This document shows positions 9,485 through 52,818 of a stretch of 64,000 bases of DNA, one piece after another (the stretch's first letter is position 1; the number at the start of each line of letters is the position of its first letter). The position numbers and the translations under genes are program-made. The notes under the pieces are model-generated. The model did not search any database and was not told the DNA's origin. It saw only the letters and a program-made list of their open reading frames with translations. Origin of the DNA: Lachnospiraceae bacterium (GTDB lineage: Bacteria > Bacillota > Clostridia > Lachnospirales > Lachnospiraceae); NCBI GenBank assembly GCA_017500935.1, contig JAFVXW010000035.1, forward strand, positions 1-64,000, given 5' to 3'.

Positions 9485-9883
9485 TTATGCAAATTTTGCC
9501 AGAACACCGTTGACAAATCCGGCAGAACCGTCCTGTCCGTAGCTCTTTGCCAGTTCAACCGCTTCGTTGATGGCAACACCGGTGGGCACTTCTTCGTCAA
9601 ATTTGATCTCATAAACCGCAAGACGGATGATGGTCAGATCCACCTTACCCATTCTCTGGGTATTCCAGCCTTTGGCTGTGGTGTTGATCATCTCGTCGAT
9701 CTCGCCAAGCTTTTCTGCGATCTTTTCATATTTGCCGGTGATATAGGCGATGTCCTTTTCGGAAGCTGCATTCTCTTCATCATCAAAAAACATCACGCAC
9801 TGATCGGGCATCTCATTTTTTTCATTAAATTCTACACGAAACAACAGTTTAAAAATCTGTTCTCTCTGTTCTCTTCTGGTCAT
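9485..9883 (-). CDS. nusB: Transcription antitermination factor NusB
   Basis: RNA-binding factor of the rRNA antitermination complex. The 132-aa all-helical protein starts MTRREQREQIFKLLFRVEF and ends with the typical AINEAVELAKSYGQDGSAGFVNGVLAKF. TCCTGG and similar purine-rich sequence precedes it on the coding strand. It lies 12 bp downstream of the Asp23-family gene, a pairing seen throughout Firmicutes. Confidence 0.97.
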   Translation of the reverse strand: MTRREQREQIFKLLFRVEFNEKNEMPDQCVMFFDDEENAASEKDIAYITGKYEKIAEKLGEIDEMINTTAKGWNTQRMGKVDLTIIRLAVYEIKFDEEVPTGVAINEAVELAKSYGQDGSAGFVNGVLAKFA

Positions 9884-11510: not shown

Positions 11511-11584
11511 AACAACTACCTCCGGAGACGATGCGGCAGCACCGCCTGAAAAGACTGTGCTGCCACCAAAAAAACTCTATATGA

Positions 11585-13180
11585 TCAGTTACGTCCAAAC
11601 TCTGCAAGTACAAGTCCGGGGTTTCTGTCCAGAACCATGCCAACACTCCAGGAGTTGACAAACAAAAGCAGAGGATTGCCTTTAAGGTCTTTGACTTTAC
11701 GCATATCGGAAGTACCCACAATTTTGGAAAGATCCACTTCATCCTTATTTTCAATCCAGCGGATATGTTCATAAGGAAGGGGCTCTAACTTAATATCTAC
11801 GTTATATTCATTTTCCAGGCGGAATTTTAATACGTCAAACTGCAGAACACCGACAACGCCGACAATGATTTCTTCCATACCGGTGTTGAACTCCTGGAAA
11901 ATCTGGATTGCACCTTCCTGTGCGATCTGATTGATACCCTTGATGAACTGTTTGCGCTTCATGGTATCCACCTGACGCACACGTGCAAAATGCTCCGGTG
12001 CGAATGTGGGAATTCCTTCATAAGTAAACTGTTCTTTGGGCATACACAGGGTATCGCCAATGGAAAATACGCCCGGATCAAATACACCGATGATATCACC
12101 GGCATAGGCTTCTGTCAGGATCTTTCTGTCATTGGCCATGATCTGCTGGGGCTGTGACAGGCGCATGTTTCTGCCGCCCTGCACATGCTTTACTTCCATA
12201 TCTGCGTCAAACTTACCGGAACAGATACGCATAAACGCGATTCTGTCACGATGAGCCTTGTTCATATTTGCCTGAATCTTAAATACAAAGGCAGAGAAAT
12301 TATTTTCCGCAGGATCGATCAGCCCCTTGTCCGCTTTACGTGCAAGAGGTGTTGTGGTCATCTGCAAAAAATGCTGTAAAAAGATCTCTACACCAAAGTT
12401 GGTCAGCGCAGAACCAAAGAATACAGGAGTCAGAAGGCCTTCCTGCACCTGTTCCAGATCAAACTCTGCGCTGGCACCGTCCAGCAGTTCGATCTCACCG
12501 ATCAGCTTATCCTTTAAGTCCTCACCCACAAAACCGGTCAGCATGTCCAGTTCATCCAGCGGGATCTCGGTAGCTTCACCTTCCTTAGTACCTTTTTCTG
12601 TATCAGAATAGGTGATGACACACTGTTTATTGCGGTCATACACACCTTTGAAGCTCTTACCGGAACCGATGGGCCAGTTGATCGGGCAGGTTGCGATTCC
12701 CAGCTCCTTCTCAATCTCATCCAGCAGTTCAAAGGTGTCATTGGCATCTCTGTCCATCTTATTGATAAAAGTAAAGATCGGGATCTTTCTCATGACGCAG
12801 ACCTTAAACAGCTTGCGGGTCTGGGGTTCTACACCCTTGCTGGCGTCAATGACCATTACCGCAGAGTCAGCTGCCATCAGCGTACGGTATGTGTCCTCGG
12901 AGAAGTCCTGATGTCCGGGGGTATCCAGCAGGTTGATACAAAAACCGTCGTATTCAAACTGCAACACGGAAGAAGTAACCGAAATACCTCTCTGTTTTTC
13001 GATCTCCATCCAGTCAGATACCGCGTGACGCGCAGTTGCCTTACCTTTTACGGAACCGGCCAGATTGATCGCACCGCCGTAAAGCAAAAACTTCTCTGTC
13101 AGAGTTGTCTTACCTGCGTCGGGGTGGGAAATGATCGCAAACGTCCTTCTTCTGTTGATTTCTTCTTTTATGCTGCTCAA
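11585..13180 (-). CDS. prfC: Peptide chain release factor 3
   Basis: GTPase that recycles RF1/RF2 from the ribosome. G1 motif SHPDAGKTTL, G3 DTPGHQDF and G4 NKMDRD are all present. I place the start at a TTG (13,180), giving 531 aa (LSSIKEEINRRRTFAII...). GGAGG lies 8 bases before it, and this length agrees with known RF3 (about 529 aa). An ATG 20 codons upstream is open but has no good ribosome site and adds residues not expected in the family. The C-terminal part (YEHIRWIE...) is complete. Confidence 0.95.
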   Translation of the reverse strand: MSSIKEEINRRRTFAIISHPDAGKTTLTEKFLLYGGAINLAGSVKGKATARHAVSDWMEIEKQRGISVTSSVLQFEYDGFCINLLDTPGHQDFSEDTYRTLMAADSAVMVIDASKGVEPQTRKLFKVCVMRKIPIFTFINKMDRDANDTFELLDEIEKELGIATCPINWPIGSGKSFKGVYDRNKQCVITYSDTEKGTKEGEATEIPLDELDMLTGFVGEDLKDKLIGEIELLDGASAEFDLEQVQEGLLTPVFFGSALTNFGVEIFLQHFLQMTTTPLARKADKGLIDPAENNFSAFVFKIQANMNKAHRDRIAFMRICSGKFDADMEVKHVQGGRNMRLSQPQQIMANDRKILTEAYAGDIIGVFDPGVFSIGDTLCMPKEQFTYEGIPTFAPEHFARVRQVDTMKRKQFIKGINQIAQEGAIQIFQEFNTGMEEIIVGVVGVLQFDVLKFRLENEYNVDIKLEPLPYEHIRWIENKDEVDLSKIVGTSDMRKVKDLKGNPLLLFVNSWSVGMVLDRNPGLVLAEFGRN

Positions 13181-43505: not shown

Positions 43506-43526
43506 TGCTGGTGGCCGGACTTGAAC
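43506..43526. repeat. Left att-like direct repeat (tRNA 3'-end-like)
   Basis: A 21-bp sequence, TGCTGGTGGCC then GGACTTGAAC, identical at 46,307-46,327 and 52,798-52,818. The copies at 43.5 and 46.3 kb share 25 bp. On the minus strand it reads as a T-loop (TTCAAGT) with the 3' acceptor strand ending CACCAGCA, as in a leucine-type tRNA, but no 5' tRNA part is present. Confidence 0.85.
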
Positions 43527-46306: not shown

Positions 46307-46327
46307 TGCTGGTGGCCGGACTTGAAC
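46307..46327. repeat. Middle att-like direct repeat
   Basis: Exact copy of the 21-bp sequence at 43,506. The next 40 bases also resemble those after the left copy (both have AAAAA-ACTGA then AGGGG-TTCC), suggesting two related elements joined end to end. Confidence 0.85.
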
Positions 46328-46387: not shown

Positions 46388-46404
46388 GTAAAAAAGTGTA
46401 AACA
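46388..46404. repeat. Subterminal repeat of the right element, left copy
   Basis: GTAAAAAAGTGTAAACA, identical to 52,739-52,755; a likely integrase arm-type site. Confidence 0.7.
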
Positions 46405-49204: not shown

Positions 49205-50104
49205 TTATGTTACTACTACTTTTATACTGTCATCAATATTATCCGCTATCCATCCTTGTATAACATCTATTGAAAATGCTGTTTCTCCAAAAATCTGCAT
49301 ATCTGGCTTCAGTATCATCTCCGTCCCAGACACATGATCTAGCTCCTTGCAGATTACATCATGCTGTGCTATTCCCCGAACATAATCTTGCTGAAACCAC
49401 ATTCCATTACGATATACATTAACCTGCAAGCTTTCACATAAGGAATTAACCGTCTGCAAACTACACTGCGAAAAATCTCCCATTCCGGCATATTCTAAAT
49501 TAGAAATCGGATGCCCTGCAAGAATTTTATCCAGAACTGCCTTGTTCATATACTGATCTCTTGACAAGGGAATTCCCCTTCCATTATCAGCAATCTTGAT
49601 CCTGCCGTCTTGAAGCAGCGTAATACTTATTTCAGTGCAATAACCAGCTTTAACTTCTTCTAATGATGCTCTAAGCACCTCAAAAACAATCTGGTGCATA
49701 TTATCAAATAATGTGTTTCTATCTAATCCCATAGACATTCTCCTTGATTCTGTATCTGGTACAACCCACTCCGGCACACTATAAGAAGCAAGATATTTTC
49801 TAACTGTGCTGGGTGTTGAACCAAATAATTGTGTAAATGATCTTGTGAATCCCTCGTGTGAATCAAAAGCATACATGATCGAAACATCCAGAACTTTCTT
49901 TCCTTCCAGCAACGAGCAAAGGGCATATTGAAGTTTTCTAATTCGGATATATCCCGTTATTGGCATTCCCATTATTTCAGCAAACAATTTACTGAAATAA
50001 AATGGGCTATATCCTGCCACTTCCGCCAACTCCAATAAGCTGATTTTTTCGTATATATGCTCATCAATGTAAAAAAGAATTTTCTTTAAAATCTCTGTAT
50101 TCAT
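49205..50104 (-). CDS. AraC-type DNA-binding domain fused to GyrB-like ATPase domain
   Basis: The 299-aa protein has an AraC/XylS double helix-turn-helix at 1-105 (ISLLELAEVAGYSPFYFSKLF, DVSIMYAFDSHEGFTRSFTQ). Residues about 125-299 resemble the N-terminal ATPase domain of DNA gyrase B: MHQIVFEVLRASLEEVKAG (136-154), then IADNGRGIPL (171-180), then TVNSLCESLQVNVYRNG and GTEMILKPDMQIF. The counterpart of the catalytic GyrB Glu is kept (Glu142), but the Mg-binding Asn is Ala146. The usual GG-LHGVG nucleotide loop is AGMGDFSQCS (206-215), so ATP hydrolysis is doubtful. It may sense a GyrB ligand or gyrase state; this is inference. Confidence 0.85.
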   Translation of the reverse strand: MNTEILKKILFYIDEHIYEKISLLELAEVAGYSPFYFSKLFAEIMGMPITGYIRIRKLQYALCSLLEGKKVLDVSIMYAFDSHEGFTRSFTQLFGSTPSTVRKYLASYSVPEWVVPDTESRRMSMGLDRNTLFDNMHQIVFEVLRASLEEVKAGYCTEISITLLQDGRIKIADNGRGIPLSRDQYMNKAVLDKILAGHPISNLEYAGMGDFSQCSLQTVNSLCESLQVNVYRNGMWFQQDYVRGIAQHDVICKELDHVSGTEMILKPDMQIFGETAFSIDVIQGWIADNIDDSIKVVVT

Positions 50105-50589
50105 GCCATTACCTCACACTTAATATTGTGAATGAAGCCCACAATATTATATTCAAGTTCGATGCTTCATACCGATCTTGTAATTGTATTATACTCCATA
50201 ATAAGATAATTTTCTTGATATCATATACGAATATTTATCGTGAATGAACAATTTCTCAACATATCATATCCACGTATCAAAAATTTCCCTGTTTCTTCAA
50301 AAAAGTCCAAAAACTGAATTTCCTAACATGTCTGCAAAACGTAGGAAAAATCAGCCCCTTACACTGAAAATGCCAATACCCTTCGCTGATACTCATTTTC
50401 TCACATCTCGCTAACACGTACCCCTTTTTCATCAGATTTTGCCAATTTCCCCGAAAACTAATTTTTCCATAAATATAAACCACTTTTCCAACATATCTGT
50501 TTAAAGTATCAAATCCATTTTCCGTGCACTCCGGCAAAACTGCCCCTAAAATCATAGAAAAAAAATTTCTCTAAACCGCCCCAAACACA

Positions 50590-50926: not shown

Positions 50927-51317
50927 CGTCAGACCCAGACCGAAGCCAATCGCTGATATGACAGATCAGGAGTTAACAGAATTGTTAACCAAGAGCAAAA
51001 CTTCAAGCGATCTTATTCCGGGGCTGATCGAATATGTTTTTCGATTAAATCGGGAGATCAAAGCATTGAAGGATCAGATGGAACGCCAGCAGACCAAGCC
51101 AGCCAAGAAGTCCGGCAGAGCCAAGCAAGACTTTTATGTGGATGGAATCTTATTGACAGATGAGGAAATCGCCTATTACGTGGAAGGCGACTACTTCACT
51201 ATCACACAATTAGAGCGACTCGTAGGAGCCAAGAAAAACCAGCTCCGCAACCGCTACAAGCGTTACAAAGAAAAGCAAAAACTTACAAAGGAGGAATCCG
51301 ACCATGGAAATTGTTAG
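50898..51317 (+). CDS. Small basic protein, probably integrase accessory factor
   Basis: The 139-aa protein has a proline-rich start, a helical middle (DLIPGLIEYVFRLNREIKALKDQM) and a basic C-terminus that looks like an HTH (TITQLERLVGAKKNQLRNRY, about 105-124). It overlaps the integrase gene by 14 bases. By position it may be a directionality or regulatory factor; I recognise no named family. The ribosome site is weak (AGTAGGT) and overlaps the GTTAC cluster. Confidence 0.8.
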   Translation: MDSYPNRPLPVRPRPKPIADMTDQELTELLTKSKTSSDLIPGLIEYVFRLNREIKALKDQMERQQTKPAKKSGRAKQDFYVDGILLTDEEIAYYVEGDYFTITQLERLVGAKKNQLRNRYKRYKEKQKLTKEESDHGNC

Positions 51318-52653
51318 ACCAACCGTGCAGGAGTGGTGCATCCCGGTGCAGTACACTTCCTCCCCGGAAATTATCAAAAACTACTTGCAAGAAGTCTTAA
51401 ACGAAGGTATGATGAATCCACAAGCAAGCACGCCGGATAATGAAGAAGCAATGAGAAAATCTCAGAAAGAAAAAATTATCAAGGCACACATGAAACAATA
51501 CAAAACTAAATACTATGAGTCAGACAATCGGTGGCACTCTTTTCTCCCGGATGAAAATCATCCCAGAAAGATGCGTCCCATTGCCAAACGGAAGTTTGAG
51601 GACTTAGAGCAGGCGATCCTTGCCTACTATGAGGAGCAGGAGCAGTTAAACAACCGTCGGAAGATCACGCTTCGCAAGTTCTACCCGGAATGGTTTCAGT
51701 ACAAATGGCAGGAAACCAACAATTCCAACTACATGAAGCACATTGACGGCGAATGGAAACGCTACTATCTGGATGACGAGATCATTGACAAGCCGATCAT
51801 AGACCTGACCACTCTGGATCTGAAAAATTGGGCGAGAAACAAGATTGTTTCCAACCACATGACCAAGAAGCAGTATTACAATATGGCAATCATCATCCGC
51901 CAGAGCTTCGACTACCTTGTGGAGTTGGGCGATCTCCCGGTAAATCACTTTGCGGAGTTCAAGATCAATGCGTCACTCTTTACCCCACCCAAGCCTAAAG
52001 AAGCGGCAGAACGTGTCTTTATTGAGGATGAGGAAAAGAAGCTGAAGCAGATCGCCTTAAAAGACTTTGAAGAACATCCGGAGCATATCGGTGCGGCTGC
52101 AGTGCTGATCAATCTGTCTTTGGGACTTCGGGTATCGGAGCTTGTGGCTTTGCAGTGGAAGGACTTAAAAGACGGCTATCTGCAGGTCAGACGCATGGAG
52201 CAGAAACAATGGGAACAGTTGCCGGATGGGACGTGGAAGGCATATCTGACCGTGGTAGATCATACCAAGTCAACCGCTGGAACGAGAACATTGTACGTGG
52301 TATCTTCCTCTATGGCATTATTTGAGCAGATACGAGCCTTTAACCAGCGTGTGGGGTATGATTGTGAGCCAGACAGCTACATCTTCCTGCATGACAATAA
52401 CCGCATCACTGCCAATTCTATTGACAGCTACTATGAGCGTTACTGCAAGATGCTGGGCATTGCCAAGAAGGGCAATCATGGAGCAAGACGTACCGCCTTA
52501 ACCAAGATCGCAGACAATCCCAACATTAACTTGAAGGATGCCATGCAATGGGCAGGACACCGGGACGTCAAGACCTTTATCGACCATTACTGCTACTCCC
52601 GATACTCTGACGAACAAAAGAAAGCTGAGTTGGAGAAGACGTTAAATCTCTAA
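51304..52653 (+). CDS. Tyrosine-type site-specific integrase
   Basis: The 449-aa recombinase has an AP2-like or arm-binding N-terminus (about 60-115), a core-binding domain (about 120-225) and a catalytic domain (about 235-449). The catalytic set is Arg276 in GLRVSELVALQWKD, Lys322 in DHTKSTAG, His392 and Arg395 in NHGARRTALT, His419 in WAGHRDVKTF and Tyr429 in IDHYCYSRY. AAGGAGG precedes the ATG. The gene ends about 145 bp from the right att-like repeat, as usual for integrative elements. Confidence 0.95.
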   Translation: MEIVRPTVQEWCIPVQYTSSPEIIKNYLQEVLNEGMMNPQASTPDNEEAMRKSQKEKIIKAHMKQYKTKYYESDNRWHSFLPDENHPRKMRPIAKRKFEDLEQAILAYYEEQEQLNNRRKITLRKFYPEWFQYKWQETNNSNYMKHIDGEWKRYYLDDEIIDKPIIDLTTLDLKNWARNKIVSNHMTKKQYYNMAIIIRQSFDYLVELGDLPVNHFAEFKINASLFTPPKPKEAAERVFIEDEEKKLKQIALKDFEEHPEHIGAAAVLINLSLGLRVSELVALQWKDLKDGYLQVRRMEQKQWEQLPDGTWKAYLTVVDHTKSTAGTRTLYVVSSSMALFEQIRAFNQRVGYDCEPDSYIFLHDNNRITANSIDSYYERYCKMLGIAKKGNHGARRTALTKIADNPNINLKDAMQWAGHRDVKTFIDHYCYSRYSDEQKKAELEKTLNL

Positions 52654-52797: not shown

Positions 52798-52818
52798 TGC
52801 TGGTGGCCGGACTTGAAC
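52798..52818. repeat. Right att-like direct repeat with T-arm-like hairpin
   Basis: Third exact copy of the 21-bp repeat. Here alone it is completed to a 9-bp perfect stem GGTGGCCGG / CCGGCCACC (52,802-52,826) with the tRNA-type loop TTCAAGT on the minus strand, directly after the ABC exporter stop codon. This completed form is probably the original chromosomal site. Confidence 0.85.

Follow-up and report, generated by a model that had tools for sequence, protein, structure and literature searches.

The window analysed here is a stretch of 64,000 nucleotides from a Lachnospiraceae bacterium (contig JAFVXW010000035.1). It contains a gene for a protein in which an AraC-type DNA-binding domain is joined to a relative of the ATPase domain of DNA gyrase B (Table 1). 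Analysis of the open reading frames places the gene on the minus strand, with the stop codon included in the interval given; the plus-strand translation of the same interval is full of stops.

Table 1. Features of the AraC-GyrB locus, in positions of the window
Feature	Position	Strand	Remarks
AraC-GyrB fusion gene, 299 aa	49205..50104	-	ATG at 50104
AraC-type double HTH, residues 1-110, N-terminal, Rob/RamA/SoxS-like	49775..50104	-	HTH_18 and RobA models
GyrB-derived ATPase subdomain without catalytic residues, about residues 130-290	49235..49717	-	profile and PDB matches
Shine-Dalgarno-like GTGAGG ahead of the ATG at 50104	50112..50117	-	
Structured leader RNA, hairpins P1 and P2	50119..50181	-	proposed 7-bp loop-loop (kissing) pairing, 50164-50170 with 50132-50138
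-10 element TATAAT	50188..50193	-	
Candidate operator RYATnnnnnnTCAAGA at the -35 position of the gene's own promoter	50213..50228	-	TCAAGA spacing across loci
Tyrosine integrase of the surrounding element	51304..52653	+	Phage_integrase 8.4e-12; phrog_1 6.1e-32
21-bp direct repeat, probable att core	46307..46327	+	
21-bp direct repeat, probable att core	52798..52818	+	
Third perfect copy of the 21-bp direct repeat	43506..43526		

The preliminary description of the gene had proposed an N-terminal AraC double HTH, and this was confirmed. HTH_18 matches residues 26-103 (1.5e-15, 57.7 bits against a cut-off of 33.6) and the RobA model spans residues 3-103 (4.9e-20). The best matches are Rob/RamA/SoxS-type proteins, whose own HTH is N-terminal. 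The C-terminal part resembles GyrB instead of GyrI; at the thresholds used, Pfam, NCBIfam and the PDB sequences gave no GyrI model or structure for it. For residues 134-284 the DNA gyrase B model (NCBIfam PRK05644, 1.3e-27) is a better match than the topoisomerase IV models (1.4e-19 to 2.5e-21), and the PDB GyrB entry 7ptf matches the fusion at 3.8e-19. A ten-member family profile finds solved GyrB structures at 2e-33, which excludes chance, and profile-profile comparison with a clostridial GyrB (L049) gave 99.4% probability over 170 columns. By this homology the domain should have the GHKL fold. The window protein scores 24.1 bits with Pfam HATPase_c, under the curated cut-off of 26.4, so routine annotation would probably read plain 'AraC'. 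The match starts at about GyrB residue 34 and the protein ends near GyrB residue 190. Thus the fusion is without the GyrB N-terminal arm, the transducer and TOPRIM, and the GyrB-like domain cannot act as a gyrase.

A search for the same AraC plus GyrB-type arrangement, suggested in the preliminary description, turned up 20 further intact loci, 41-83% identical to the window protein. Their neighbouring genes are not conserved. The loci came from a scan of genome contigs that gave 37 loci, with L015-L035 counted as members by a match across both domains; the family size is a lower bound because the scan relied on two short HTH patterns. The copy in L031 is frameshifted, L036 is cut by a contig end and L037 appears decayed, and these three were omitted from the protein alignment (A2). 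All 21 aligned members match HTH_18, HTH_AraC and HATPase_c at E <= 0.01. Eleven of the 20 loci are titled Lachnospiraceae; the other nine are from Acetatifactor, Tyzzerella, Pseudolachnospira, Drancourtella (placed by NCBI under Oscillospiraceae), one Defluviitaleaceae, one Clostridiales and three uncultured Clostridia. The spread is patchy. Full-length relatives were found in 5 of 397 genomes of the same taxonomic family (E <= 1e-25) and in 3 of 392 of the order (E <= 1e-45), the own genome counted in each, and in 1 of 299 genomes of the phylum, the own genome. In the class sample 33 of 391 genomes matched at 1e-30, and among the matches listed only that of the own genome spans both domains.

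Eight pairs were compared for the HTH and the GyrB-like part separately; of the 16 domain comparisons 14 could be computed, and their dN/dS ratios were 0.03-0.16, with many dS values above 1 and near saturation. Judged by these ratios, the fusion gene is under purifying selection. No relative of the full fusion was found in viral contigs, where 24 pattern stretches were scanned, or in plasmids at 1e-25. Weaker plasmid and phage matches never reached 80% query coverage, and plasmids contained nothing close to a 9.5-kb stretch of the region. The GyrB-like part by itself, used in a viral scan, gave 110 relatives, 80 of which were kept and inspected for frame length and lid motif. Their frames are at least 316 aa long, the three below 450 aa run off the available DNA, and GxHGxG is present in 39 of the 80. 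On frame length and lid motif they were read as phage topoisomerases.

The residues of the ATP pocket were compared between the 21 members (the window and 20 loci) and 26 GyrB/ParE rows, using E. coli numbering. The GyrB/ParE rows were kept only if D[ND]GRGIP and GGLHGVG were present, so their full conservation of these two motifs is partly by construction. The filter dropped the long topoisomerase frames L061 and L067, both of which have GGLHGVG; restoring L067 changed nothing of note, and L061 stayed out. L056 and L070, whose longest frames are not topoisomerase-like, were also left out of the GyrB set. In the window protein D173, R176, A146, P199 and R232 are the equivalents of D73, R76, N46, K103 and R136, and residues 209-215 correspond to the GGLHGVG lid.

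One part of the pocket is strongly conserved. E50, D73, G75, R76, G77, P79, G101, Q143 and G164 are identical in all 21 members, as is the DxGRGxP pattern of the Asp73 loop, and Glu42 is present in 18. R136 is Arg in 19 of the 21 members versus 18 of the 26 topoisomerase rows. We take Asp73 to be the adenine contact, and Arg136 and N46 to be coumarin and noviose contacts of GyrB, respectively. The other part of the pocket has been lost. K103 is retained in none of the members, 18 of which have Pro instead, and N46 is retained in five. No member has a complete GGLHGVG lid; the first glycine is left in 13 and the last glycine in 13, and some lids are still partly glycine-rich (GDLAGVG in L033, GDFSGIG in L017). 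The lid is chemically changed, not deleted, since the segment from G101 to N124 is gap-free in all members. In addition the family has a motif of its own, RG-[IV]-x-QH, in which G244 and Q247 are invariant. A glutamine occupies the R136 position in one of the host's two type II topoisomerase B subunits (L002), and in 5 of the 26 clostridial GyrB/ParE rows.

Agreement with the GyrB majority residue was 0.86 at 11 positions on the nucleobase and inhibitor side, 0.21 at 11 positions of the phosphate, Mg and lid side, and 0.46 at the 66 columns with at least 95% conservation in GyrB, the list of pocket-side positions being assumed from general knowledge. The split is significant (one-sided Mann-Whitney p = 4e-5), and with one filtered-out topoisomerase row restored the values were 0.86, 0.21 and 0.48 (68 columns) with the same p. 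Thus the phosphate/Mg/lid half has been lost and the nucleobase half kept, and by its residues the GyrB part of the fusion is a pseudo-ATPase that retains the nucleobase/inhibitor half of the pocket. It very probably does not hydrolyze ATP. D73, R76, E50 and P79 could have been retained for fold stability instead of a ligand. The limited retention of T165 (just 13 of 21) and of N46, presumably a noviose contact (5 of 21), also counts against a ligand-binding pocket. PDB entries such as 3g75 and 3ttz, each of which aligns with the fusion in two stretches, are presumably constructs without the lid loop that still bind inhibitors, which would make inhibitor binding without a working lid plausible. 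An unrooted tree, which points to no donor, sets the fusion family off as a single cluster from the 26 GyrB/ParE rows (support 100/100).

The preliminary description had called the domain GyrB-like and probably inactive, with Ala146 in place of the Mg-binding Asn and an altered glycine-rich loop. Both changes are there, with A146 at the Asn46 position and GDFSQCS where GyrB has GGLHGVG, and the affinity to GyrB is firm. The verdict of inactivity needs refining: ATPase activity is almost certainly gone, but the domain is not simply dead, since half of its pocket has been kept.

The promoters of the family share a fixed feature. In 22 of 23 loci (the window and L015-L036) TCAAGA stands exactly 19 bp ahead of a hexamer that agrees with TATAAT in four or more of its six letters; only L024 deviates, with TCAGGA. 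When these upstream regions were resampled 300 times with a first-order Markov model, 0.29 loci on average and never more than 2 had the arrangement, a comparison that is no independent test because the box was found by eye in the same sequences and the loci are related. A second half-site, approximately RYATwT, lies one turn upstream of TCAAGA. Activators of the MarA type are expected to have a fixed placement at the -35 position, and the box could well be such an activator site. Its fixed spacing suggests autoregulation, with the box as the candidate operator.

The combined pattern has 48 matches in 22 member genomes, 20 of which are the gene's own promoter, as told by comparing the matched letters with the promoter set; a reversed-pattern control gave 12 matches in the same genomes. 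The promoters of L028 and L029 fail this stricter pattern. Thirty of the 48 matches were inspected with their loci: 14 are own promoters, and 12 of the other 16 sit inside frames of more than 150 codons. Among 29 relative genomes (18 searched for the gene with no match, and 11 of the same genus outside that gene search) the pattern has 15 matches. Non-self matches are thus commoner in the members (28 in 22 genomes, two of them larger than 6.8 Mb), so further regulatory targets are possible. Only the own promoter recurs consistently as a site, next to a surplus of other matches. In the genome of L033 another AraC protein, of 494 aa, has the same promoter box upstream (L112:3-1484, minus strand); it shows a weak, sub-threshold methyl-accepting-chemotaxis match and its frame ends at the locus edge. 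This gene is possibly a second target or a relative.

Between promoter and gene lies a leader in eight loci: the window, L015-L018, L021, L026 and L029. Outside the window it was located at L015:8575-8638, L016:9922-9984, L017:9905-9972, L018:9904-9971, L021:8440-8503 and L029:649-709. In the window, L015-L018 and L021 the predicted transcript starts at the foot of hairpin P1 (CAAG...CUUG), and P2 follows P1 and ends just ahead of the Shine-Dalgarno sequence. The two loops, AUGAAGC and GCUUCAU, are complementary. Over seven sequences 94.3% of the cells pair and 17 of the 25 pairs change on both sides. Because the 5' arm of P1 in L029 overlaps its -10 element, the count was repeated without L029. 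With six sequences, among which L017 and L018 are near copies, 96.0% pair and 13 of 25 pairs covary. None of 500 shuffles was as high in either count, and slid controls of the six sequences were 33-42% paired. L026, in which P1 and P2 are separated by an insertion and the promoter-P1 segment is duplicated, was kept out of both counts. RNAalifold unaided gives essentially the same two hairpins. In L026 the promoter and first hairpin are duplicated downstream of the gene (9751-9839 and 11526-11616; 92% identical over 91 columns).

The wobbles are one-sided, with 14 GU versus 0 AC in the six sequences and about 16-18 GU versus 2 AC when L029 is included. Such a bias is what a sense-strand RNA should show, and a DNA palindrome was rejected for the stems. 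The loop-loop pairing appears less secure. It has no wobble in the six-sequence set and could still be a DNA palindrome; within these six, five of the seven pairs are invariant, and both covarying pairs are due to L021 alone. L026, uncounted, agrees by eye with the pairing. In the five cases tested, matched loops have pairing energies of -7.7 to -11.5 kcal/mol; unmatched loops among the window, L021 and L026 have -3.9 to -8.6 kcal/mol. Single-sequence folds of the seven leaders recover P1 in six and P2 in five (it is absent in L016 and L018). Sequestration of the Shine-Dalgarno sequence by loop 2 was considered and dropped because these folds are inconsistent. Folded as a single sequence, the window leader plus a piece of its promoter has only mild stability (z -1.57), so the case for the RNA rests on covariation.

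The other members searched are without the leader. Most of them have a shorter distance from box to ATG (52-79), and L024, L028 and L030 (90-138) lack it too. Among 348 genomes of the family six leader matches were found at E <= 0.01. The three below 1e-4 all precede the AraC-GyrB gene, and no frame of at least 80 codons starts within 400 bases downstream of the other three. Among 98 relative genomes there were three matches, two before the AraC-GyrB gene and a weak one before an ABC ATPase frame. All of the strong matches lay ahead of the AraC-GyrB gene. No Rfam 15 family reached its gathering score; six matches were sub-threshold, the best at 16.7 bits against 40.

The integrase and three perfect 21-bp repeats agree with the mobile island of the preliminary description. 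The AraC-GyrB gene is probably inside an integrative element bounded by the repeats at 46307 and 52798. The third copy, at 43506, suggests that there are probably two elements in tandem, of 2.8 and 6.5 kb. The repeats are reminiscent of a tRNA 3' end; ARAGORN found no tRNA in the window. A further repeat occurs at 46388 and 52739.

The preliminary description had also pointed to Mrr and an ImmA/IrrE-like peptidase, which lie inside the same element as the fusion gene, and to phage gyrase-modifying proteins. A link of the fusion to such phage proteins or to defence found no support. Neither Mrr nor ImmA/IrrE has a relative in the 22 other neighbourhoods compared, which rules out a general defence-island reading, and PADLOC gave no match for the fusion at E <= 0.01. 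Among the frames between 46 and 53 kb only the fusion gene and a flanking ABC ATPase have relatives in those neighbourhoods (BLASTP, 1e-8). The comparison was made by BLASTP and by eye on crude gene calls, with neighbourhoods that are unequal and in part shortened by contig ends. The widest neighbour group is of generic ABC ATPases, in 7 of 23 sets with the window included and counted with no background rate, and the next groups occur in three. ABC ATPases are common everywhere, and those of the window sit outside the probable element. A conserved operon partner was sought in the 23 sets and rejected, and no resistance, drug-synthesis or gyrase gene was seen to recur beside the fusion by BLASTP and by eye. 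In L015 the gene is flanked on one side by a metK-like gene (by eye) and on the other by relatives of the GNAT and NUDIX genes of the window; the distance from gene to GNAT is 234 bases there versus about 3.9 kb in the window. Other loci have unrelated contexts, for example L019, where the gene follows a tuf-like gene (by eye).

A GyrB partner for an AraC protein had seemed unfamiliar from the start, and no description of such a fusion was found in the open-access literature, as far as searched. The nearest known proteins are Rob and STM3175, which share the domain order and a similar size with the fusion and match its HTH (PDB 1d5y at 1.1e-15 and 7r3w at 4.8e-11). STM3175/YgiV is described as an AraC DNA-binding domain joined to a GyrI-like one, which captures albicidin, a gyrase poison, and autoregulation, a possible likeness to the fusion, is discussed by the authors (PMC10414762). 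The effector domain of Rob and STM3175 has a GyrI-like fold, whereas that of the fusion is a relative of the GyrB ATPase. With the 24-kDa ATPase subdomain of GyrB/ParE the fusion shares about 150 aligned residues, the D73/R76/G77/P79 loop, E50 and Gly164; it differs in that the arm, transducer, TOPRIM, Lys103 and the complete GGLHGVG are absent and Asn46 is mostly lost.

The reading we prefer, to which we give an even chance, is that of a one-component regulator which controls its own gene and binds its ligand with a domain derived from GyrB. It would have the layout of Rob and YgiV/STM3175, with the AraC/MarA-type DNA-binding domain at the N-terminus and the effector domain at the C-terminus. 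The GyrB-like domain would bind the ligand with the part of the pocket that serves adenine and the inhibitors overlapping it. The HTH would bind the conserved box, which replaces the -35 element of its own promoter, and the ligand-bound protein would activate its own synthesis. The simplest output would be more of the same protein, because no consistent site other than its own promoter was found and partner genes are not conserved. A GyrB blocker such as an aminocoumarin-like natural product might be both inducer and prey, as albicidin and STM3175 suggest by analogy. In some members the two-hairpin leader RNA may add post-transcriptional control. Gyrase-inhibitor sensing is compatible with the sequence of the fusion. 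The most specific form of the proposal, a self-inducing pocket that is sensor and sponge for natural GyrB inhibitors with a kissing-hairpin leader as the second control, is offered tentatively, as somewhat improbable in its entirety.

A purine would be nearly as good a fit as an inhibitor of the GyrB pocket, and the sequence does not separate the two. The fusion is thus possibly, though with rather less than even likelihood, a sensor of the purine or energy state, with adenine, adenosine, AMP/ADP or a different purine as its ligand. The Asp presumed to contact adenine is invariant with its loop, the contacts to triphosphate and Mg are gone, Glu42 is nearly always kept, and a smaller ligand would fit the retained half-pocket as well as an inhibitor does. 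However, no neighbour family recurs except the generic ABC ATPases, a housekeeping sensor would not usually be as patchy as 5 of 397 genomes of the family, and the retention of Arg136, presumably the coumarin contact, in more members than topoisomerases (19 of 21 versus 18 of 26) is a weak hint of an inhibitor. It is unlikely that the pseudo-ATPase takes no small ligand and instead dimerizes, or docks on gyrase or on a phage protein that targets GyrB. The residues conserved in this family alone, the Pro at the K103 position and the RG-[IV]-x-QH motif with its invariant G244 and Q247, would suit an interaction surface; but the arm and transducer that form the ATPase dimer of GyrB are missing, no partner gene is conserved, and the viral-contig scan gave no fusion relative.

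That the domain is still an active ATPase, or a switch that uses ATP in an altered way, is very improbable. Asn46 in five members and the partly glycine-rich lids of L033 and L017 point that way, but K103 and the complete lid are gone in all 21, and the window protein is without Asn46. An accidental or decaying fusion with no function would account for the frameshifted and the decayed-looking copies (L031 and L037); it can be practically dismissed given 20 intact homologues down to 41% identity, a dN/dS of about 0.1, a fixed promoter box and a covarying leader RNA.

The preferred reading, a regulator with a GyrB-derived ligand-binding domain, has a parallel in the beta-lactam receptors BlaR1 and MecR1, whose sensor is a relative of the drug-binding enzyme. 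These differ from the fusion in being membrane receptors with a protease relay and a covalent ligand. The leader resembles riboswitch-like RNAs in being a covarying 5' leader that runs from the predicted transcription start to the Shine-Dalgarno sequence; it differs in staying under every Rfam 15 gathering score and in having strong matches before one gene only. It is a compact structured element open to compensatory mutations. The split conservation makes the question of the pseudo-ATPase's ligand testable on a small soluble protein with a defined promoter. If the proposal is true, a copy of the drug-binding domain of a core enzyme has lost its catalysis and now serves as the input of a transcription factor, much like a BlaR1 in soluble form, and gut Clostridia could detect GyrB-directed natural products.
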